Source: Acidobacteriota bacterium (GTDB lineage: Bacteria; Acidobacteriota; UBA6911). Taken from it: a DNA stretch of 51,382 nucleotides. Location of the stretch: positions 1 through 51,382 of the forward strand of contig JAISUT010000029.1 in NCBI GenBank assembly GCA_031271905.1. The letters run 5' to 3'. Position 1 is the first letter of the stretch. The number at the start of each line of letters is the position of its first letter. Under the pieces are notes generated by a model that saw only the letters and a program-made list of their open reading frames with translations, was not told the DNA's origin and did not search any database. Positions 316 through 51,380 of this stretch are shown here, in pieces. A program made the translations under genes and the position numbers.

Positions 316-378
316 TCATTTCACGAAGCCGTGGTAGTTGCCGTCGGCGTCCACGAAGTATCCCACGACCCGGCCAGC
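316..378 (-). pseudogene. Terminal fragment of a HAF-repeat gene, overlapping the PKD gene end in another frame
   Basis: In the frame offset from the PKD gene, the minus strand reads A-G-R-V-V-G-Y-F-V-D-A-D-G-N-Y-H-G-F-V-K-stop (TGA at 318-316). This is the signature unit of the HAF extracellular repeat. It matches units such as NDAGQVVGYYMDASGRYHGF in the intact HAF lipoprotein at 48640-49704. Only the last ~20 codons survive, so a deletion or illegitimate recombination joined a PKD gene to the end of a HAF gene in the wrong frame, around the bases GCTGGCCGG. Confidence 0.7.
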
Positions 379-1943
379 ACGCTCCAAAGGTAGGTCAGGG
401 GGTAGCCTTGCGGGTCGCTTGACGCGCCGCCGTCGAGCTGCGCCGCCACGCCCGCCTCCACCTCCTGGTCCTCGCCGGCGTCCGCCACCGGCGGCAGGTC
501 ATTCGTCGAGACCAGCACCGTCGCGGGGGCGCTGGCCGCCGGCGAAGCGTCGCTCACCGTGAGCTGCGCCACATAGTCGCCGGGGACGTCCGCGACGAAC
601 CACGGGCGCGCCGTGTCCGCGTCATGCAGCTCCGCCGCGCTCCCGGCGGGCTTGGACGCGAGCGCCCAGGCGTAGTCAAGCGGCAGCCCGTTCAACCCCC
701 TGGAGCCGCCGCCGTCCAGATGCACCGTCTCGCCGACCGCCACGCGCTGCGCCCGCCCCGCGTCCGCCATAGGCGCCAGGGTCATCGTAGACACCTCCAC
801 CAAGTCGGGGTCGCCGGCCATGAACCGGTCTGACGCCACCAAGCGGAATTTATAGCTGCCGGGCAGGTCGACCACGAACGTCGGCGTCACCGCCGCCGGG
901 TCGGACAGCTCCGCCGCGCTTCCCGCAGGCTTTTCCACGAGCTCCCAGGCGTACGTCAACGGCACGCCGTTCAGGGTGGTCGAGCCGCTGCCGTCGAGCG
1001 CCACCGTGGCACCGACCGCCGCCGCCTGGTCCTCGCCCGCGCGGGTCGTGGGCTTCACCGCGCCGATGGTCACCTCCACCGACGACGGCGCGCTGTCGCC
1101 CGTGCCGTCGCTGCAGACCAGCTCGACGACATACCTGCCGGGGACGTCCGCCCGGAATTCGGGGCGCACCGCCGTCGGGTCGCTCAGCGTGGCGTGGCTC
1201 CCCTCGGGCTTTTCCACGATGGTCCACCGATAGGTGACGGGCCCGCCGCCCGCGCCGCCGACCGACTTGCTCCCGTCCAAGACCACCGTCGCGCCCGCCT
1301 CCACCACTTGGTCGCTGCCGGCGTCGGCTGTCGGAGTGGCGGGCGGGGCGGTGTCGTAGGCGATCTCCCAGAACAGGTCGTCGGGGTCGAGGGGTTCCAG
1401 CGCACTGCGGCGGATGGTGAACGTGTCTCCGTCGCTCACCTTCGCGCTCATCGCGCCCACGTTGCCGAAGCGCAGGACGCCCTCCACCACCTCGACGCGG
1501 GGGTTGACGCTCGTCAGCGTCGCCGTCACGTTCGACACCGCGCCGCCGATGTTGGTCACCACCGCCGTGTAGTCGTAGTCGTAGACGCCGTCAACGACGA
1601 CAGCCTGCCGCCGCCTCCCATTCGAACTGGGCACCGGCTGGCTGCCGACGACCCGTCGCCGCCTCAAAGCCGAGCCCACCGCCGCCTGGTTGTCGATGTC
1701 GTAGTCGTAGAGACCGGTATAGACCGGCCGCTGTTCCACCTGCACGTAGTGGCCGATGCGCAACTGCTCGCCCTGCGGCGCCGCGGCGGCGCCACCGTCG
1801 CCGGAGGCGTCTTGCACCGGTATTTGCATATATTGGGGGAGCACCAGGGGTGCCAGCCGGGGCGTCCAGACGTTCGCATATTGGGCGTAGGGTTGGAAAA
1901 AGACGATGGCGGCCAACAGGATGGTTGCGATCGGTTTTCTCAT
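321..1943 (-). CDS. Secreted PKD-repeat surface protein, 3'-truncated and fused out of frame to a HAF-gene remnant
   Basis: 540 residues. The first ~20 (MRKPIATILLAAIVFFQ) look like a signal peptide. Residues ~60-190 form an N-terminal domain also found in the CotH protein at 43917-47864 (shared features: YVQV near the start, 'VxATLTSxxP', 'VRFGNV', 'DTFTI', 'PFDPxxLxWEIA'). Compared with that paralog it carries an Arg-rich insertion flanked by two YDYD motifs. Then follow three full PKD domains (each with ADAG.DQ, 'LDGxxS', 'YxWxLxxKPxGS') and the start of a fourth. The fourth breaks after YLWSVLAG. The remaining 15 residues (S, then WDTSWTPTATTTAS) are a frameshifted reading of another gene's end (see 316-378). 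PKD domains mediate surface adhesion or protein interaction. Anchoring is unknown, and the protein may be non-functional or simply truncated. Confidence 0.8.
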   Translation of the reverse strand: MRKPIATILLAAIVFFQPYAQYANVWTPRLAPLVLPQYMQIPVQDASGDGGAAAAPQGEQLRIGHYVQVEQRPVYTGLYDYDIDNQAAVGSALRRRRVVGSQPVPSSNGRRRQAVVVDGVYDYDYTAVVTNIGGAVSNVTATLTSVNPRVEVVEGVLRFGNVGAMSAKVSDGDTFTIRRSALEPLDPDDLFWEIAYDTAPPATPTADAGSDQVVEAGATVVLDGSKSVGGAGGGPVTYRWTIVEKPEGSHATLSDPTAVRPEFRADVPGRYVVELVCSDGTGDSAPSSVEVTIGAVKPTTRAGEDQAAAVGATVALDGSGSTTLNGVPLTYAWELVEKPAGSAAELSDPAAVTPTFVVDLPGSYKFRLVASDRFMAGDPDLVEVSTMTLAPMADAGRAQRVAVGETVHLDGGGSRGLNGLPLDYAWALASKPAGSAAELHDADTARPWFVADVPGDYVAQLTVSDASPAASAPATVLVSTNDLPPVADAGEDQEVEAGVAAQLDGGASSDPQGYPLTYLWSVLAGSWDTSWTPTATTTAS

Positions 1944-2247
1944 AAGTGCGTGTTCCTTCTCGTGTTCGTGCCTCGTGCCGGTTGTATGAATTCTCGCCGC
2001 CTACCTTTTTGCTCCCTGACGCGCTCGTCGCCGCAATTTCTTTTATCGAAGGGGGACGGCAAACCCCTGCCGCCCGTGCCCCCCCCCCGTAGCGGGAACA
2101 GACCTCCGCGCACACAAGCAAGCTGATTAATTCCAATGTTTTACAATTATTGCAAGCCATTGGCGGAAACCACTTGTCATGCTGGAAATCCAATTTTTTG
2201 ATGCAATTCACATGCCACAGGGGAAAAACGCGGCACCGTATTTTTTG

Positions 2248-2274
2248 CTTGACTTTTGCAAATTATTTATTTTC
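2248..2274. promoter_or_regulatory. 27-bp AT-rich box, locus 1 copy
   Basis: This stretch (CTTGAC...CAAATTA.TTATTTTC) matches 49842-49868 at 23 of 27 positions. In both places it is followed rightwards by a pentanucleotide tract and then by a TGTAAAG palindrome. In both places a secreted-protein gene lies to the left on the minus strand. It is about 305 bp upstream of the PKD gene start. It may hold promoter elements, but no strong -35/-10 pair can be fixed on either strand. Confidence 0.5.
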
Positions 2275-2282
2275 AGCAAAAT

Positions 2283-2363
2283 GTTTTGTTTTGTTTTGTT
2301 TTGTTTTGTTTTGTTTTGTTTTGTTTTGTTTTGTTTTGTTTTGTTTTGTGCGGTGCGGTGCGG
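2283..2363. repeat. Pentanucleotide microsatellite (gtttt)13 followed by (tgcgg)3
   Basis: Bases 2283-2349 are 13.4 perfect copies of a 5-mer (gtttt). A second 5-mer array, about three copies of tgcgg, follows at once. The surroundings are non-coding. An open frame runs through the tract and translates as repeated CFVLF, but it has no ribosome-binding site or family resemblance. Perfect tracts of this length are prone to slipped-strand length change. The tract lies ~340 bp upstream of the PKD surface-protein start, between a conserved box and a palindrome. Confidence 0.9.
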
Positions 2364-2375
2364 TGCCACCCTTTT

Positions 2376-2395
2376 GTGTAAAGATTTCCTTACAC
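2376..2395. promoter_or_regulatory. Palindrome GTGTAA-N8-TTACAC, possible operator
   Basis: A perfect 6+6 inverted repeat (20 bp in total) of the type TGTAAAG...CTTACA sits just right of the pentanucleotide tract. Related palindromes occur at 49941-49968 and 50043-50070 in the corresponding position of the second locus. The arrangement fits a dimeric regulator, but none is identified. Confidence 0.5.
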
Positions 2396-3971: not shown

Positions 3972-4063
3972 GATTCTTTTCCATCCCCCACCCCATCCCC
4001 AGGGTAGGCACCGCTTCGCGTCCGCCAACCCTGGGCTTTGTTACGAAGCCCCGTCGGGGCTTT
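3971..4063. repeat. REP-like double-hairpin element, copy 2 (supplies the stop codon of the MoaD-like gene)
   Basis: The core is 3997-4062: CCCCAGGGTAGGC...GCCAACCCTGGG, then AAGCCCC-GTC-GGGGCTT as a perfect 7-bp stem. Read on the minus strand it follows a gene end, as copy 3 does. The minus-strand gene at 4041-4331 reads into the second hairpin and takes its TAA (4043-4041) from the element. Confidence 0.8.
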
Positions 4064-5017: not shown

Positions 5018-5785
5018 TCAATGGGAGACCGGCGCCGCGCCGGGGCGCAAGGTCACCCGTTCCTCGCCCCGCCGCAGGATCACGCCGTCCGGGGTGATGC
5101 TCTCGACGACGCAATCCGCCGTCACGTCGTCACCCTCCAGATACCGCCGCCCGTCGAGGAAAACCATGCGCTCGTCTTTGTCGTCGCTGTAGAGATGGAC
5201 GCTCATGGTCATCGCCGCCGCGACATCCCGGAGGGATGTCGCACCCCCCCCTCCCGCAGGCCGCGCTTGCGCAGGTTGCGCCTGCGCAGGCGGCGCGACC
5301 GCTGATCGCGCAGACGGCTCGGGCGCGACGCTCGCAGGCGCGCCAGTCGAAGGCGCGGTCGGCGCAGACGCGGCAACCGAAGGAGCGGACGGCGCGGACG
5401 CCACACCCGCAGGCACGGACGGCGCGGGCGCGGCGGGCGAAGGCGCGGTCGGCGCGGACGCCACACCCGCAGGCACGGACGGCGCGGACGCGGCAACCGA
5501 AGGCGCGGTCGGCGCGTCCACCGCCGCCTGCGACGGCGGCGCGGGCGCAGGGCTCGCCAAAGCCACGGCGGAAGCGGCGTCCGGCACCGGAGCCTGCGCC
5601 CCGCGGCGTTGGAACAAAAACACCGCCACGACCAGGCAGAGTGTCGCGGCCACCGCCACGGCGACGCCGAGGCGGACGCCCGCCCTTTTCTTTTCTGGAA
5701 GCTCGTGGACGGTTTCGAGCGTCGGGACTTTAGCCAGCTCCCGCTCGCGATCCGCCTTCCTCAGCGCATCCAATATGTACGACAT
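5018..5785 (-). CDS. gspB: GspB-like type II secretion assembly protein
   Basis: 255 residues. The N-terminus MSYILDALRKADRERELAKVP is the hallmark of the GspB/ExeB family. One membrane helix follows at ~38-58 (GVAVAVAATLCLVVAVFLF). The middle (~65-170) is a Pro/Ala/Ser-rich periplasmic linker encoded by a 60-bp tandem repeat. The C-terminal T2SSB domain (SVHLYSDDKDERMVFLDGRR...GVILRRGEERVTLRPG) closes the protein. GspB works with the ATPase GspA to place the secretin in the peptidoglycan layer, and here the GspA-type gene lies directly upstream (12-bp gap). No other type II secretion genes are in the window. Confidence 0.85.
   Translation of the reverse strand: MSYILDALRKADRERELAKVPTLETVHELPEKKRAGVRLGVAVAVAATLCLVVAVFLFQRRGAQAPVPDAASAVALASPAPAPPSQAAVDAPTAPSVAASAPSVPAGVASAPTAPSPAAPAPSVPAGVASAPSAPSVAASAPTAPSTGAPASVAPEPSARSAVAPPAQAQPAQARPAGGGGATSLRDVAAAMTMSVHLYSDDKDERMVFLDGRRYLEGDDVTADCVVESITPDGVILRRGEERVTLRPGAAPVSH
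5341..5520. repeat. 60-bp tandem repeat inside gspB
   Basis: Bases 5341-5400, 5401-5460 and 5461-5520 are three consecutive 60-bp units of near-identical sequence (for example CCACACCCGCAGGCACGGAC begins both the second and third). They encode ~20-residue Pro/Ala/Ser/Val units of the periplasmic linker (APSVPAGVASAPTAPS-like). The in-frame period means copy-number changes alter linker length without breaking the gene. Confidence 0.8.
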
Positions 5786-13300: not shown

Positions 13301-13370
13301 CCCCAGGGCAGGCGACGCTTCGCGTCCGCCTGCCCTGGGCTTCGTCGCGAAGCCCCGCCGGGGCTTCTTT
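13301..13370. repeat. REP-like double-hairpin element, copy 3 (between btuB and cobU)
   Basis: CCCCAGGGCAGGCGACG pairs with CGCCTGCCCTGGG, and a second stem GAAGCCCCGCCGGGGCTTC lies next to the btuB stop. Read on the minus strand it begins at the btuB stop codon and ends in TTTG, so it can act as a partial terminator or a 3'-end-stabilising structure between btuB and the cob genes. The first arm pair has compensatory changes relative to copies 1 and 2, supporting a selected RNA or DNA hairpin. Confidence 0.8.
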
Positions 13371-15330: not shown

Positions 15331-15566
15331 ATGAAACCTCCGGTCTCCCGCGAAGGGGATGGCATGGCAAGACCAAAAGAAGACGCCAGACGCAGGGAAT
15401 GATGCGGCGATATGCAGGACGCTTCACTTTACGGACGCTTTGAGGACCGCGCCCGATCATGGCGAAGCCTCAACCTTGGTTTTGCGAACAAGTTTTTTCG
15501 GCCGGCGCACCGCCTCCGTCCGCAAAGCGAACCGGACGCATGGGCATCGACCGCATTGAGCGCGTC

Positions 15567-15725
15567 GCAGCAGATATCCTGACTTCGGGCTTCCGACCTA
15601 CTCCCTCGCCTTCCCCGCACCGTTAGGCGGCACCGAGTGGCCGATGAGGTTTCGTAACCCGTCACAGTGGCGCAACCGTTCCCGATTCCCACGGGATTCC
15701 CTGGTCTGCGACGCCGACCCGGATC
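15567..15725 (-). ncRNA. Cobalamin riboswitch controlling btuB and the cob genes
   Basis: On the minus strand the leader shows the expected order of elements: AGGGAATCCCGTGGGAATCG, then GCGCCACTGTGACGGG (the GCCACTG core at 15671-15665), a variable stem with a second GGCCACTCGG, then GGGGAAGGCGAGGGAG, and the B12-box-like CCGAAGTCAGGATATCTGC near 15585-15571. These match the AdoCbl/cobalamin riboswitch consensus. Ligand binding normally lowers expression. The btuB start is ~240 nt downstream, leaving room for an expression platform: a stem GCGTCCG.../CGGACG occurs at ~15515-15540. Confidence 0.93.
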
Positions 15726-15799
15726 CCACGCGGGAGCCGGGTGTGAACTACGAACTACAACTTCGGACTACAGCTTCATCGTCAAACAAACGAAAACGC

Positions 15800-43384: not shown

Positions 43385-43905
43385 GGAGGAGACATTCACG
43401 CGGTTCTCATCTATCTTGATCGCCTCGACCAACTGGTAAACGCCCAGGTACTCGTCGTCCATATACAGGGAGACCTGTTCGGAGCGGGTGTCCAGTCCAT
43501 CCCGTCGAACATCTCCCCCATCCTGAATGCCGCCTCGGTGCGGAGCAGCGACTTGTCCAGATGGTTTGCGAGCAACACATATCGCTTGTGCGACGACATG
43601 CCCAAAAGCGACGCCTTCGTTTCGAGCTTCAACGAATACGGCTTTTTATCCAACGTCCAAGTGAAATTCCCACGCCCCTTGACCCGCCGTCTTTCCCGAG
43701 GACAAAACCTCGCCGGCGGCGTCAGACAGCGAATACTCGACAAGCTCGCTCCAATCCTCTTTGCTGGTGACGGCGCCCTTGTTGATTTTGATATCGAGCC
43801 TAGGCAATGCGACCTGCGCCGCTGCAGCCGCCGTCACCGCAGGGAACCGATATATGTGTCCAGGATATATGTGTCCAGATACTCCATGCGCTCTTGCCAC
43901 CAAAC
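43385..43905 (-). pseudogene. Decayed CotH-kinase gene with at least two frameshifts
   Basis: Three minus-strand frames give consecutive pieces of one CotH-like protein. LPRLDIKINKGAVTSKEDWS (to about 43690) parallels the start of the CotH domain in the intact gene. Then follow GRGNFTWTLDKKPYSLKLET with KRYVLLANHLDKSLLRTEAA (to about 43500), and finally EQVSLYMDDEYLGVYQLVEA with IKIDENRVNV. The rest is missing. Equivalent segments in the intact CotH gene are GRGNTTWMYPKKPYRIKF and VELFLNGDYQGSYVLTEQ. It lies directly downstream of that gene, so it is a broken tandem duplicate. Confidence 0.75.
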
Positions 43906-43985
43906 CTTCATCGCGGCTACAGGGAACCGATATATTTGTCCAGATACTTCATGCGCTCTTGCCACCAAACCTTCATCGCGGCTAC
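43845..43985. repeat. Tandem duplication of the CotH gene's 3' end
   Basis: Bases 43845-43919 and 43920-43985 are near-identical (CCATCGCG...-rich reading AAMKVWWQERM.YLD.YIGSL on the minus strand). The left copy has an extra internal duplication of GGATATATGTGTCCA that doubles the Y-I-L-D-T motif. The right copy is the actual CotH C-terminus (stop at 43919-43917). Confidence 0.8.
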
Positions 43986-46900
43986 ACTGGAGTCGTGCTC
44001 CGCATCCCCCCATTTCAGGTCCTTCCATCTCAGGGAGTTCTCCTCCGCCGACTTATGGATGGCCGCGGCGAGGCTATCGATGAAATCCGGCATTTCGCCG
44101 ACCTGTTCGCGCATCTCCACCCACCGGTCTTTATATTTGGCGACGAAAACACGATCCTCGAAGAAACGTTTGAAGAAGGGATGGACATCTTGTGGGGCGA
44201 TAGCGCTCTTATAGCTGCCAGCGGAAAAATACTCCTGATAGTACTGCCCAAAACCACAGTCGAAGTCCCACAGCGGTCCCATGCCGATCTTCCCGCCGGC
44301 GTCCTTGTACATGTAGGTGCTCCCCGGGTTGTACAATTCGCCGTTTTTGACGATTTCATTGATCAGCAGGAAATCGACGAAGGTGTCCATGTCGATGAGC
44401 TCCCGGTAGCCGCTTTCGGGAAATGACGCATCGTACATTGCGGTCTCCAAGCCGTTGACCGCGTCTTTGACGAAGTCGTAACCGGACGGGTCGGTCAAGT
44501 CTTCCGGCGACTTGATCATGACCGGCAGGTTGTATTTGTCGGATCTGAACCTGGGTTCCTCGTCATAATGGAAGTCCAGTTCGACCAAGAAACCGTCGTC
44601 CTCGTCGATATCGACCCGCCCCTTCCCCACCTGGACTTGCTCGGTCAACACATAGCTCCCCTGGTAATCCCCGTTCAGGAACAGCTCCACGTGGACATAA
44701 TGGTTGGTGAACGGCAATCCGAAGCGACGCCCCATCTCAAAAGCCACGCTATTCATCATAAACGTGGGGTCCTGGTAATTCGCCAGCAACACCCAGCTCT
44801 TCGCCTTGGTGAGCCCGAACAAGGGGGTCTTCTCGGCGAATTTTATCCGATAAGGCTTTTTGGGATACATCCAGGTGGTGTTGCCCCTGCCGCGCACCTC
44901 GTCGGCATAGGCCGTGTGGACGAGCTCATACTCCGGATGGTCGGTGTCGAAGACCGCGATGTTCGTCTTGACATACGTCTCCTTGCTGACGATGGCGGCA
45001 TTGTCCTTGGTGTCGATCTTTATGACCGGCAAGCCCGTCGTCTGCGGCGATTGGATGCGCACCGCATATGTCCTCCGGGCACCTCCCGCCGCCTCGACGA
45101 CATACGTCACGTCCTTGCGGAAGTCGTTCTTCGTCGCGCCGCTGACCTGCGCGACGCCTTCCACCGTGACGGCGCCCCCGGCGGTGAACTCCGCAGCCAG
45201 CGCGTCGATGTCCTCTATCCAATCCTGCGTGGCGAGCACGATGGTGCCCTCATCCTGGTCGATGACGCCGGAGATGCCCCCGATGCGAAAATCGACCATC
45301 TCCGCCACGCCCGCCGGAGGGGATGATTCCGTGACCACGATCCAGCCGGTGGCCGCGCGGTACTCCGCGGAGGAGCCGCCGTTTACCAAACGATCCGATA
45401 CCCGCAACTCAACCGGATACGTTCCGGCACCCAAGGATTTTACGAAATAATTCCCCATGCCGGCATAACTTCCGTCAAGCAACCACGTGAGGTTGCACCC
45501 GTCGAAAAATGACTGGCAGGACTTGGCTGTCACGTGAACAGGAACTGTTTCACCCGGCGCGACGGTCAATGACAGCGTAGAGTCGTTGGGAGCAGATTCC
45601 CGCGCACCGTCGGACATGGTGAACCCTGTCCCGGCATAATGTCCGATCCTGTTGCGGTTGCTGACCGCCGTGCCGGTCAGGCCACCGGCGTCGGTGACGA
45701 CCAGCTCGACATCGAAAGATTTGCCCACGGCCACCTGATACGGGTAAGTGACCTCGCGCCCAGTCAATGTGACAGGGGCACCGGTCGATGGCGTCACCGT
45801 CCAAGCGTATTGCAACGTGCTCACATCTTCATCTTCGCTGGACGCGGCGGACAATTCCACCGCAACCGTAGCGCCGGAGTAGCCGTCGAGGTACATGACA
45901 AAATCCCAGCCGCCGACGCCATTGGCCTTGCGTTCCGCAAGCTCGTGAACATTGGGCACCGTCATGGCGAGCTTCGCCACCGGCGGCTGGTTCCCCCCTA
46001 CAGCCGCCGTCACCGCGCCGTAGCTGATCGTGATGTACGCGGTCTGCGTCGGCGACGAGCTGTCGGTCACCGTCACCGTCGCCGTCCCCGCCGCCTGCGC
46101 CGTCGTCGGCGTCCCGGAGACCACCCCCGTCGCGCTGACCGTGATGCCCGCGGGCAGTCCGCTCGCGGCGAAGCTGTAGGGCGCCGTCCCGCCGCTCACG
46201 CCTCCCGCCACGTCCACCGGCGCGATCGGCGCGCCGACCGTGGACGCCGGGATGCTGTAATCGCCCGTGGAAGCGAGGGGGCGCGCGGACGCCTCGATCA
46301 CCACCGTGGCGGGGGCGCTCGCGTAGACGCCGTTGTTGACGACGAGTTGGAAGACGTACGTCCCGGCGACCGCCGGCGTGAACGTGGGCCGGCTGGTCGC
46401 CGCGCCGGAAAGCGTCACGGATATTCCACCCGGCGTCGTGCTCAACAACGTCCACGTGTAGGACAGGGGATAGTCCTGCGGGTCGCTTGACGCGCCACCG
46501 TCCAGGGTCACCGTCTCGCCGACGGTGGCGGTTCCGCCGACGCCCGCGTCCGCCTCCGGCTTGACCACATAGGTCGAGACCAGCACCGTGTCCGGTCCGC
46601 TCACGTCTTCCCCGTCGCTGACGACGAGCTCTATCACATAGTCGCCCATCAGGTCGGCGCGGAACCAGGGCGCGGCGGTGTCCGCCCCATGCAAGGACGC
46701 CTCGCTCCCCGCAGGCTTGGACGTCATCTCCCACCGGTAGGAGAGCGCACCTCCGCTGTAGCCGAGCGAGGCGTTGCCGTCGAGCGTCCCCGTCTCGCCG
46801 ACGGCGACGTGCCGGTCTTCGCCCGCCCGCGCCACGGGCGGGAGCGCTCCGGTGGAGACCACCACATAGGAGGGGTCGCTGTCCAGGTAGCCGTTGGACA

Positions 46901-48639: not shown

Positions 48640-49704
48640 TCACCATTCGGCGACAAAGCCCAGGCGCAAGCCGTCGTTCCCCTCGAAATAGCCGACCACG
48701 GCCCCCAGGTCGTCCAGCCCGTAAATGTACGTGACCCCGTCCTCGGAATACTCGACCAACGTGTAGTCGTCCCCGTCCTTCAGGAAGCTGCGGATGTCCC
48801 CCGCCGCCGTCATGTACCACCCGACCATCTGCCCGGAGTCGTTGATCTCGAAGATGCGGGTGTTGGCGGCATCCCCGTAGTGGATGCGCGAGAACCCGGA
48901 GGCGTCCTTCACAAAGCCGTAGTACCAGTCGTCCGCGTCTTGATAATAGCCGACCAGGCGCCCCGCGTCGTCCAACCCCGTCACATAGGTGTGCTTCGCC
49001 CCGGGATATTCGACGTAGGCGTATCCGCCGTCTTTCACGAACCCCCGGTAGCGGCCGGTCGCGACATCCCAGCAATAGCCCGCGACAACCCCCGCGTCGT
49101 TGACATCGAGGGCGTAGGTCGCGTCCGAGCCGTCGCAGTCGAGCCGCGCGTAGCTCCCCCCGTCCAGCAGGAAGCCGTGGTATCTCCCCGATGCGTCCAT
49201 GTAGTAGCCGACCACCTGGCCCGCGTCGTTGATCCCCTCCGCATGGGTCGCCTTCGCCCCGGGGTACTCGATGGGGGCGTACCGCTCCCCGTCTTTCACG
49301 AACCCCCTGTTGGCGCCCGACGGATCCGTGAACGAACCGACCACCTGCCCGACATCGTTGATCCCCACCGCATATGTGTGCAACGCGCCGGGATACGCGA
49401 CGTCGATGAACGGCCCGGACAACACGGGGTCCGAGCCGGGAGCCGCACCGGAGCCGGAGTCGTCAGGGTCGGGATCGGAGTCGGAGTCAGGGTCGGAATC
49501 AGAATCGGAATCAGGGTCTGCGTCGGGGTCGGGGTCTGGGTCGGGGCCGGTGACACCCACGTCGGGGAGGAGTGGGGAATCCCCGCCGGAAGGGGATGCC
49601 GCGCCGTCATTGCCGCCGCTCTTGCCGCCTCCGCCGCCGCAGGCGGTCAGCGCAAGAAGCGACAACGCCGCGACCACCAACAACAATGCTTTCAAATATC
49701 GCAT
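48640..49704 (-). CDS. HAF-repeat lipoprotein
   Basis: 354 residues from MRYLKALLLVVAALSLLALT with lipobox LLALTAC, so it is anchored in an envelope membrane through a lipidated Cys21-region. A ~60-residue linker of DPDPDSDS repeats leads to about six 45-residue HAF repeats (pattern Y-P-G-A-x-x-T-x-x-x-G-I-N-D-A-G-Q-V-V-G), forming a beta-propeller-like surface domain. The linker is encoded by a short-period tandem repeat (49460-49555). First gene of the envelope-protein run. A HAF remnant is fused to the PKD gene at 316-378. Confidence 0.85.
   Translation of the reverse strand: MRYLKALLLVVAALSLLALTACGGGGGKSGGNDGAASPSGGDSPLLPDVGVTGPDPDPDPDADPDSDSDSDPDSDSDPDPDDSGSGAAPGSDPVLSGPFIDVAYPGALHTYAVGINDVGQVVGSFTDPSGANRGFVKDGERYAPIEYPGAKATHAEGINDAGQVVGYYMDASGRYHGFLLDGGSYARLDCDGSDATYALDVNDAGVVAGYCWDVATGRYRGFVKDGGYAYVEYPGAKHTYVTGLDDAGRLVGYYQDADDWYYGFVKDASGFSRIHYGDAANTRIFEINDSGQMVGWYMTAAGDIRSFLKDGDDYTLVEYSEDGVTYIYGLDDLGAVVGYFEGNDGLRLGFVAEW
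49460..49555. repeat. Short-period tandem repeat encoding an acidic linker
   Basis: Six-base units of the type GGGTCG/GGAGTC/GGAATC run for about 95 bp inside the HAF lipoprotein gene and encode Asp-Pro and Asp-Ser pairs. Multiples of 6 keep the frame, so length changes would only alter the stalk. Confidence 0.75.
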
Positions 49705-49841
49705 CGACGCCTCCCTGCTTTGCTTATATGTGCGAATAGCGAACACACGACATGCTACATGCTATAAAATACGAATTATCATAAGCAATTCACGTGCCAC
49801 ATACCCCAGAGCGGGCGGCAGGCAGGCGTCAGAACTTTCCC

Positions 49842-49868
49842 CTTGACATATTCAAATTACTTATTTTC
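49842..49868. promoter_or_regulatory. 27-bp AT-rich box, locus 2 copy
   Basis: CTTGACATATTCAAATTACT and the following TATTTTC match 2248-2274 at 23 of 27 positions. About 140 bp upstream of the HAF lipoprotein start. A plus-strand TTGACA with TATAAT 20 bp later also exists, so which strand it serves is unsettled. Confidence 0.5.
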
Positions 49869-49878
49869 TATAATTTGC

Positions 49879-49897
49879 AAAATAAAATAAAATAAAA
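49879..49897. repeat. Pentanucleotide tract (aaaat)3.8
   Basis: A short perfect 5-mer array in the same position, relative to the 27-bp box and the palindromes, as the (gtttt)13 tract of locus 1. The unit sequence differs (aaaat versus gtttt), but period and place are the same. Confidence 0.85.
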
Positions 49898-49940: not shown

Positions 49941-49968
49941 TTGTAAAGGAATCCGACACATTTCCTTA
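49941..49968. promoter_or_regulatory. TGTAAAG palindrome 1
   Basis: TTGTAAAGGAATCCGACACA then TTTCCTTA: the arms AAAGGAA/TTTCCTT are inverted, and AAATTT flanks on both sides. The centre ATCCGACACAT is repeated exactly in the site at 50043-50070. It looks like a dimeric regulator's operator. Confidence 0.55.
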
Positions 49969-50042: not shown

Positions 50043-50070
50043 ATGTAAAGAAATCCGACACATCTTTACA
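50043..50070. promoter_or_regulatory. TGTAAAG palindrome 2
   Basis: TGTAAAG-N13-CTTTACA, a perfect 7+7 inverted repeat with the same centre (ATCCGACACAT) as the site 102 bp to the left. The two sites could bind the same factor and control the HAF operon (leftward) or the lipoprotein gene at 50400 (rightward). Confidence 0.6.
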
Positions 50071-50108: not shown

Positions 50109-50390
50109 CCGCGAGCCGACTGTCCGAATCCCGACGTTTCCGGAAAGCAGACCGAACCCGCGCAGCCTGACAGGTCGTTTCCCCTGGTCGTTTCCCCTCC
50201 CGTTTCCCCTCCCGTTTCCCCTGCAAAAAACGTTTCCAGATCCCGGAATCTTGGGATAGAATCGAAGTTCCCGTCGGTGCGGGGGCATCCCTGCGGCGGG
50301 AAAAATTGACATAAAGGCCGTTATCGGAAACCGGAATGGGATGGATCGAACCAGAAAATGCAGCTTGTTCGCCCTATCCGTAAAACAGAG
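50109..50390. repeat. Long direct repeat, left copy, with a promoter-like segment
   Basis: Matches 51139-51380 along its length (CGCGAGCCGACTGTCCGAAT..., ending GCAGCTTGTTCGCCCTATCC), with an extra ~40 bp made of CGTTTCCCCT-type tandem units at 50177-50222. Contains a hairpin CCCGTCGGTGCGGG/CCCTGCGGCGGG and TTGACATAAAGG at ~50307, a candidate -35, but no clear -10. It lies immediately upstream of the lipoprotein gene. Confidence 0.85.
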
Positions 50391-50399
50391 GAGATTGCA

Positions 50400-50990
50400 A
50401 TGAAAAGGTTACTTATACTAATGCTGGCATTGGTGCTGGCGCTGTCACTTGTCGCCTGCGGCAGCGGCGAAACAACGACCGCGCCGACCGCAAGCAGCGA
50501 TACCGCCGAAACCTCGCAGACCACCACGGGGGCGAACAGCAGCGGCGCAGACCTCACCACAGTCGAGGGTTTTCTAACGGCATTCGGACTCACAGAAGGC
50601 GACTTAAAATGCGCAAATTACACACGCTTGGACAAAACGACATATACCATTGACGAGGGCGCGGATTACGGTAAAATCAAAGAAGTTGGCGCGTATGTTT
50701 CTAAAGCCTTGACGGACGATGAAGTTAGAGCGTGGCTTAAGCAGGTTATCAGCAAGCTTAATTCTTTGTCTGATGATGGCAAAATTGACAATGTATTTCA
50801 ACCCGGGTCTGCTTTGACGGCAGATTATATCATCGAAAAAAGTAATGGTTATCTTTATCAAGGCAGCGGTTATTACAACTATAACGGCAAAAAAGTTTCT
50901 GTCCAAATTTGTGTTTATCCGAACCAACTCGACAGCGACGACCCTAACGATGCAATGCTGGCTGGCACATTAAAGTTAGAGTGGTATTAA
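50400..50990 (+). CDS. Lipoprotein of Firmicutes-like composition
   Basis: 196 residues from MKRLLILMLALVLALSLVAC with lipobox LSLVAC and ribosome site GAGGAG. A Thr/Ser-rich linker (TTTAPTASSDTAETSQTTTG) precedes a small domain (VEGFLTAFGLTEGDLKCANY; VKQVISKLNS-like helix; NVFQPGSALTADYIIEKSNG; GSGYYNYNGKKVSVQICVYP) of no recognised family. The 3' two-thirds are markedly AT-richer than the window. Flanked by long direct repeats, so it looks like a transferred and possibly amplified cassette. A terminator follows. Confidence 0.8.
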   Translation: MKRLLILMLALVLALSLVACGSGETTTAPTASSDTAETSQTTTGANSSGADLTTVEGFLTAFGLTEGDLKCANYTRLDKTTYTIDEGADYGKIKEVGAYVSKALTDDEVRAWLKQVISKLNSLSDDGKIDNVFQPGSALTADYIIEKSNGYLYQGSGYYNYNGKKVSVQICVYPNQLDSDDPNDAMLAGTLKLEWY

Positions 50991-51138: not shown

Positions 51139-51380
51139 CCGCGAGCCGACTGTCCGAATCCCGACGTTTCCGGCAAGCAGACCGAACCCGCGCAGCTTGA
51201 CCTGCCCGCAAGGTCTTTTCCCCTGCAAGAACGCTTCCATTCTCCGGAACCTTGGAATAGAATCGGGGTTCCCGTCGGTGCGGGGGCGTCCCTGCGGCGG
51301 GAAAAATTGACATAAAGGCCGTTATCGGAAGCGGAGATGGGACGGGCCGAACCGGAAAATGCAGCTTGTTCGCCCTATCC
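51139..51380. repeat. Long direct repeat, right copy, reaching the window end
   Basis: The second copy of 50109-50390, lacking the CGTTTCCCCT array. It ends where the left copy would be followed by a ribosome site and start codon, so another paralog probably begins just beyond the window. No gene is supported in 50991-51382 itself. Confidence 0.85.

Follow-up and report, generated by a model that had tools for sequence, protein, structure and literature searches.

Within the window, by which we mean the whole 51,382-nucleotide stretch of contig JAISUT010000029.1 from an Acidobacteriota bacterium, two genes for envelope proteins are accompanied by the same series of short elements: a 27-bp box, a pentanucleotide run, and palindromes of the TGTAAAG type. 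What does this series control, and does the repeat inside it play a part? The initial annotation described a duplicated control region in which a slippage-prone tract separates an operator from a promoter, as known from phase-variable adhesins such as Neisseria nadA. The likeness of the two boxes was confirmed (CTTGACTTTTGCAAATTATTTATTTTC vs CTTGACATATTCAAATTACTTATTTTC, alike at 23 of 27 bases), and each does have a secreted-protein gene to its left on the minus strand, namely a signal-peptide PKD protein at locus 1 and a HAF-repeat lipoprotein at locus 2. All four TGTAAAG copies in the window (0.98 expected) lie at these two loci, beyond the tracts, as had been described. The order of the elements is indeed kept despite the differing repeat unit, and now holds at three secreted-protein loci, the third of which (locus 3, on C58) is outside the window. 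The perfect 5-bp microsatellite said to follow each box is present at locus 1 (68 bp) but was overstated for locus 2 (19 bp). The features are collected in Table 1.

Table 1. Features of the loci discussed in the text; positions are those of the window unless C58 is named.
Locus	Feature	Position	Strand	Details
1	Secreted PKD-domain protein, driven gene	321..1943	-	540 aa; PF22352 6.6e-33, PF18911 5.8e-27
1	Sigma-54 promoter	2202..2217	-	TGGCATG-TGAA-TTGCA (GG-N10-GC); exact match to TGGCAYGNNNNTTGCW
1	27-bp box	2248..2274	+	CTTGACTTTTGCAAATTATTTATTTTC; 32 bp upstream of -24 GG
1	Perfect pentanucleotide tract	2282..2349		(TGTTT)13.6, 68 bp, between box and activator site
1	G+C-rich pentanucleotide run	2352..2366		(GCACC)3 on minus strand, adjoins long tract
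1	Activator site	2377..2394		TGTAAAGATTTCCTTACA, 1 mismatch from TGTAAAG-N4-CTTTACA; 169.5 bp from -24 GG
2	HAF-repeat lipoprotein (LTAC-G), driven gene	48640..49746	-	TIGR02913 1.9e-18
2	Sigma-54 promoter	49784..49799	-	TGGCACG-TGAA-TTGCT; exact match to TGGCAYGNNNNTTGCW pattern
2	27-bp box	49842..49868	+	CTTGACATATTCAAATTACTTATTTTC; 44 bp upstream of -24 GG
2	Short pentanucleotide run	49879..49897		(AAAAT)3.8, 19 bp
2	Proximal activator site	49942..49958		TGTAAAGGAATCCGACA; 152 bp from -24 GG
2	Distal activator site	50044..50060		TGTAAAGAAATCCGACA; 254 bp from -24 GG
3	Perfect tract	C58:47811-47905		(TTTGC)19.0, 95 bp, outside window

A second element common to the two window loci lies to the left of the box, around 2203-2219 and 49785-49801, and reads GCAATTCAC(A/G)TGCCACA with 16 of 17 bases identical. 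On the minus strand, this element is a sigma-54 promoter (TGGCATGTGAATTGCA at 2217-2202 and TGGCACGTGAATTGCT at 49799-49784). The genome contains 15 exact -24/-12 matches, two of which are those of loci 1 and 2, and both point into the secreted-protein genes on their left, with transcription probably starting near 2191 and 49773, respectively. Locus 3 has a minimal GG-N10-GC promoter (TTGGATAAAAAATTGC) that lacks the CAC of the -24 element. One match to rpoN (8.5e-56) and 14 clear sigma-54 activators are encoded in the genome. Sigma-54 polymerase does not transcribe until it is contacted, via a DNA loop, by an activator that sits upstream. Because a -24/-12 promoter was found to the left of the box, facing the secreted-protein gene, the palindromes are read as upstream activator sites. 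The nadA-like operators of the initial annotation are thus activator (enhancer) sites of a known type and not repressor operators; the tract does separate a regulator site from a promoter, as was claimed, but the promoter is the sigma-54 element beyond the box. We hold this anatomy of sigma-54 promoter and activator sites with high confidence.

The protein driven at locus 1 carries an N-terminal signal peptide, as judged by inspection of the translation. Its C-terminus is SWDTSWTPTATTTAS, and an alternative frame of the same DNA (window 321-370, minus strand) reads VGYFVDADGNYHGFVK-stop, a HAF-like ending that resembles the locus 2 protein; a frameshift, natural or from assembly, is likely near the 3' end of the gene. 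The start codon at locus 2 is likely the ATG at 49704. No relatives of the C58 lipoprotein were found in 59 other genomes, and PEP-CTERM was found in none of the three driven proteins.

The two activator sites of locus 2 read TGTAAAGRAATCCGACA, and a further CTTTACA arm, ending at 50070, lies beside the distal site. Both sites match a 17-mer motif, TGTAAAGNNNTCCGACA, exactly (window 49942 and 50044). Outside the window, the genome holds only two exact matches (C55:14076 and 14175), both before one gene, and a copy with one mismatch is found at C29:93421; the C55 and C29 genes have a sigma-54 promoter and PEP-CTERM products (VPEPSSVLLLGGGLLGLG..., VPEPGTIVLLGSGLLG..., TIGR02595). At loci 1 and 3, the site is an 18-bp variant of higher symmetry, TGTAAAG-N4-CTTTACA, which might be read by another activator. 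In C29 and in congeners, TGTCGG-type and TGTAAA-type sites are mixed at single promoters, suggesting that one activator probably reads both. At the C29 PEP-CTERM promoter (L083, C29:88000-98911, about 5300-5600), one 17-bp and one 18-bp site lie 90.5 bp apart, and congeners likewise have pairs of activator sites at intervals of about 90-113 bp.

Which activator reads these sites? The accessible text of Haft et al. 2006 (PMC1569441) describes an arrangement, tied to PrsK/PrsR, in which a 17-nt motif with TTTACA at its end, in some cases present more than once, precedes a -24/-12 element; a few of the motif sites stand before other genes. RpoN dependence has been shown by experiment for the PEP-CTERM gene pepA in Aquincola (PMC9850573). 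Common to the promoters of that text and to our loci are a TTTACA-ending 17-nt motif (exact and doubled at locus 2, variant at loci 1 and 3), a subsequent -24/-12 element (minimal at C58), and secreted-protein genes, the comparison being made with the published text description of the motif and not with its logo (PMC1569441). As in PEP-CTERM/PrsK-PrsR systems, RpoN, PrsK, PrsR, an exosortase, and an EpsI-like protein are all encoded. PrsR (TIGR02915) scored 590 bits against a cut-off of 502.6, the sole pass among the 12 of the 14 sigma-54 activators taken into the NCBIfam scan, and PrsK (TIGR02916) scored 337 against 300; both are encoded side by side with the exosortase (PF09721) and the EpsI-like protein (PF11984) in one cluster on C39. 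We consider PrsR to be the probable binder of the TGTAAAG sites. Unlike the PEP-CTERM/PrsK-PrsR promoters, those of the box loci drive proteins that lack PEP-CTERM and have a tract and a box interposed. The spacing between motif 1 and motif 2 is about 140-200 bp at the box loci, against 32-92 bp (mean 63) in the accessible published text, a range that includes the tract-free locus on C55 with about 86 bp (PMC1569441).

Tract-free promoters allowed the contribution of the tract to this spacing to be estimated. Three congeners contain eight exact 17-mers, each with a sigma-54-like element downstream (imperfect elements at L235, L236, L239, and L240 were accepted on GG-N10-GC); at least three of the sites precede PEP-CTERM genes (L237, L238, and L241), the L240 product is HAF-repeat-like by eye, and tract and box are absent at all eight. 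The distance from the proximal site to the -24 GG is 97-131 bp (mean 117, SD 11) at the eight tract-free loci with a proximal site, two in this genome and six in congeners, and 169.5, 152, and 206.5 bp at box loci 1, 2, and 3, respectively. Subtraction of the tract reduces the latter values to about 101, 133, and 111 bp, so that most of the extra enhancer-promoter distance at the box loci is tract. The normal distances left after subtraction indicate that the tract has been added to an enhancer-promoter spacer of ordinary length. Among the tract-free loci (n=8), the proximal sites show weak helical clustering, with a Rayleigh p of 0.03-0.07 according to the pitch assumed. With the current repeat numbers, loci 1 and 2 lie near the tract-free phase; at C58, the proximal site is far off and the distal site is near. 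Helical phase is suggestive as a sign of function, and the present phase positions constitute a prediction rather than evidence.

At loci 1 and 3, the regulator site is separated from the promoter by a perfect short-unit tract; locus 2 has just 19 bp, a run that falls below the length reported by Tandem Repeats Finder. On the activator side, each long tract is accompanied by a short G+C-rich pentanucleotide run (GCACC x3 and CGCCA x4 in the gene direction). With 13.6 and 19 copies, the long tracts are the longest perfect repeats of 2-9-bp units in the 0.97 Mb sampled, which includes the loci themselves and 40 other stretches chosen by position from a genome of 66% G+C; the next longest is a 48-bp nonamer. 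Long YTTTG tracts occur at no other place in the genome. A search for a TTTGYTTTGYTTTG tract followed by TGTAAAG in one genome per species (about 85,000 species) gave no trio of palindrome, box, and sigma-54 promoter among the matches listed. Two long tracts among those matches (L142 and L143) do sit in open frames, and open reading frames also span the tract at loci 1 and 3, a stop-free 5-bp unit being open in all frames. The tract could on this basis be a translated repeat of a small Lys/Gln-rich protein, but the frames extend into the activator site, the box, and the promoter and have sequence in common only within the tract, and we regard such a protein as extremely improbable.

Other repeats and a riboswitch were also observed in the window. 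The sequence preceding the lipoprotein gene 50358-50990 occurs again behind it (50109-50379 vs 51139-51380; 97% identity over 63 bp and 89% over 167 bp), suggesting an array of lipoprotein genes that runs off the contig. A G+C-rich palindromic element, CCCAGGGTAGGC...GCCAACCCTGGG, occurs at 2530-2591, 3991-4052, and 13301-13356 (97% and 86% identity) and is an interspersed REP-like repeat. A 65-bp tandem repeat at 43864-43986 (1.9 copies, 96%) overlaps a 1315-codon open frame on the minus strand, and a cobalamin riboswitch is located at 15552-15731 on the minus strand (59.5 bits).

The box is restricted to the three tract loci. With as many as 3 mismatches allowed, it has only two matches in the window (0 expected from 100 shuffles) and only one beyond the window in the whole 3.4-Mb genome, at C58:47769, 30 bp from the -24/-12 element there; the reversed-pattern control gave 0, and the exact box core is absent from 99 relatives. 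The idea that box and palindromes would precede further secreted-protein genes was thus only partly upheld: the palindromes recur before two PEP-CTERM genes, but the box recurs only once. Its distance to the promoter is larger at locus 2 than at locus 1 (44 vs 32 bp) by about one helical turn. The box lies at roughly -55 to -95 from the presumed start, and bending proteins often act at about these positions in sigma-54 promoters. Its probable binder is a DNA-bending or co-regulatory protein. As an IHF site, it was discarded on a by-eye check, the fit to the consensus WATCAANNNNTTR being poor. TTGACA or TTGACT opens the box at all three loci, and a sigma-70 promoter (TTGAC -35) firing rightwards through the tract into the right-hand gene was therefore weighed. 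It was rejected, since the loci have no -10 in common at 17 bp (TTCAGC, TTCTAT, and TGCAAC). Moreover, the best-conserved part of the box, CAAATTA, would fall in the spacer, and the right-hand genes are unrelated (a PD-(D/E)XK protein, a lipoprotein, and a radical SAM protein). We judge this promoter improbable.

We propose that each cassette drives the secreted-protein gene to its left from a sigma-54 promoter that depends on an enhancer, with the elements ordered in the gene direction as TGTAAAG activator sites, pentanucleotide tract, box, -24/-12 promoter, and gene. An activator of the sigma-54 class, in all likelihood PrsR once PrsK has phosphorylated it, would bind the TGTAAAG sites and reach the RpoN-polymerase by looping the intervening DNA, so that the tract would sit inside the loop. 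Slipped-strand mispairing would alter the tract length in 5-bp steps. Each step is 5/10.5 of a turn and would shift the angle between activator and promoter by about 171 degrees, so that productive looping would be helped at one repeat number and hindered at the next. The outcome would be a heritable, reversible change in the expression of surface proteins. In natural Vibrio sigma-54 enhancers, loop lengths fall into groups about 11 bp apart, and a change in output is predicted for indels of 5-6 bp in sigma-54 enhancers (PMC4740811). By sequence, the promoter, activator sites, box, tract, and regulator genes are all present. Counting against a switch are the 3.8 repeat copies of locus 2 and the locus 3 promoter without CAC; in addition, looping DNA of 150-300 bp may be flexible enough that phase matters little. 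The whole explanation, a sigma-54/PrsR cassette with a tract-length switch, seems to us to have an even chance of being right. That the tract varies in length and thereby works as a functional switch of expression falls just short of that. More tentative still, though possible, is the full form of the proposal: a contingency switch in a sigma-54 enhancer in which a half-turn rotation per slippage event would toggle looping in a PrsR-type surface-protein regulon.

The sigma-54/PrsR promoter may instead be real and the tract a passive, slippage-prone A/T-rich expansion whose drift in length has no effect, the loop being long and flexible. Enhancers do tolerate changes of distance, the tract-free loci span 97-131 bp and still look intact, and the phase clustering is weak. 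This account has to explain, however, why both long tracts lie in spacers of one promoter class and none elsewhere in the 0.97 Mb, although both long-tract loci also have the box and may share a single origin. We regard passive drift as rather unlikely. Descent would also account for the common order of the elements if new genes acquired copies of one ancestral region that already held box and tract, the order then owing nothing to selection; copying of this kind would fit either functional reading of the tract. Loci 1 and 3 align over tract and box (75.6% over 123 bp), and their activator sites align as well (91.7% over 24 bp). The likeness nevertheless stops at the functional elements and tract; the loci have different leaders and genes, and their repeat units differ too (TGTTT, TTTGC, and AAAAT on the other strand). 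Copying of the cassette is likewise a minority expectation in our estimate.

Most known cases of phase variation by promoter repeats come from host-adapted bacteria and involve the spacing of repressors or of polymerase contacts. The proposed enhancer-loop switch resembles Neisseria meningitidis nadA, in which the copy number of a short-unit repeat between distal regulator sites and promoter sets the spacing and looping has been proposed, with the bending protein IHF beside the tract (PMC2791445). There, however, a TAAA tract is combined with the NadR repressor, whereas here a 5-bp unit is combined with activator sites and a sigma-54 promoter that needs an activator; repeat variation was demonstrated for nadA (PMC2791445) and is here predicted from one genome. 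In the T-tract rheostat of Helicobacter pylori sabA, tract length similarly shifts the axial alignment of upstream elements and core promoter, but the tract is a homopolymer beside the -35 that acts without an enhancer, on contacts of RNA polymerase with UP-like elements (PMC4081817). Helical register governs sigma-54 enhancer output in Vibrio qrr and synthetic NtrC enhancers as well, with loop-length changes that are evolutionary or engineered and not made by a microsatellite (PMC4740811). In the accessible parts of the open-access literature on phase variation, sigma-54, and PEP-CTERM, no paper evidently described a sigma-54 promoter separated from its enhancer by a repeat. If the proposal is true, random switching would be joined to the most tightly gated promoter class by a 5-bp unit close to half a helical turn, and natural length variants would make the importance of helical register in natural enhancers testable. 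The cassettes would also add lipoproteins and PKD/HAF proteins that lack a PEP-CTERM signal to the PrsR-type regulon.
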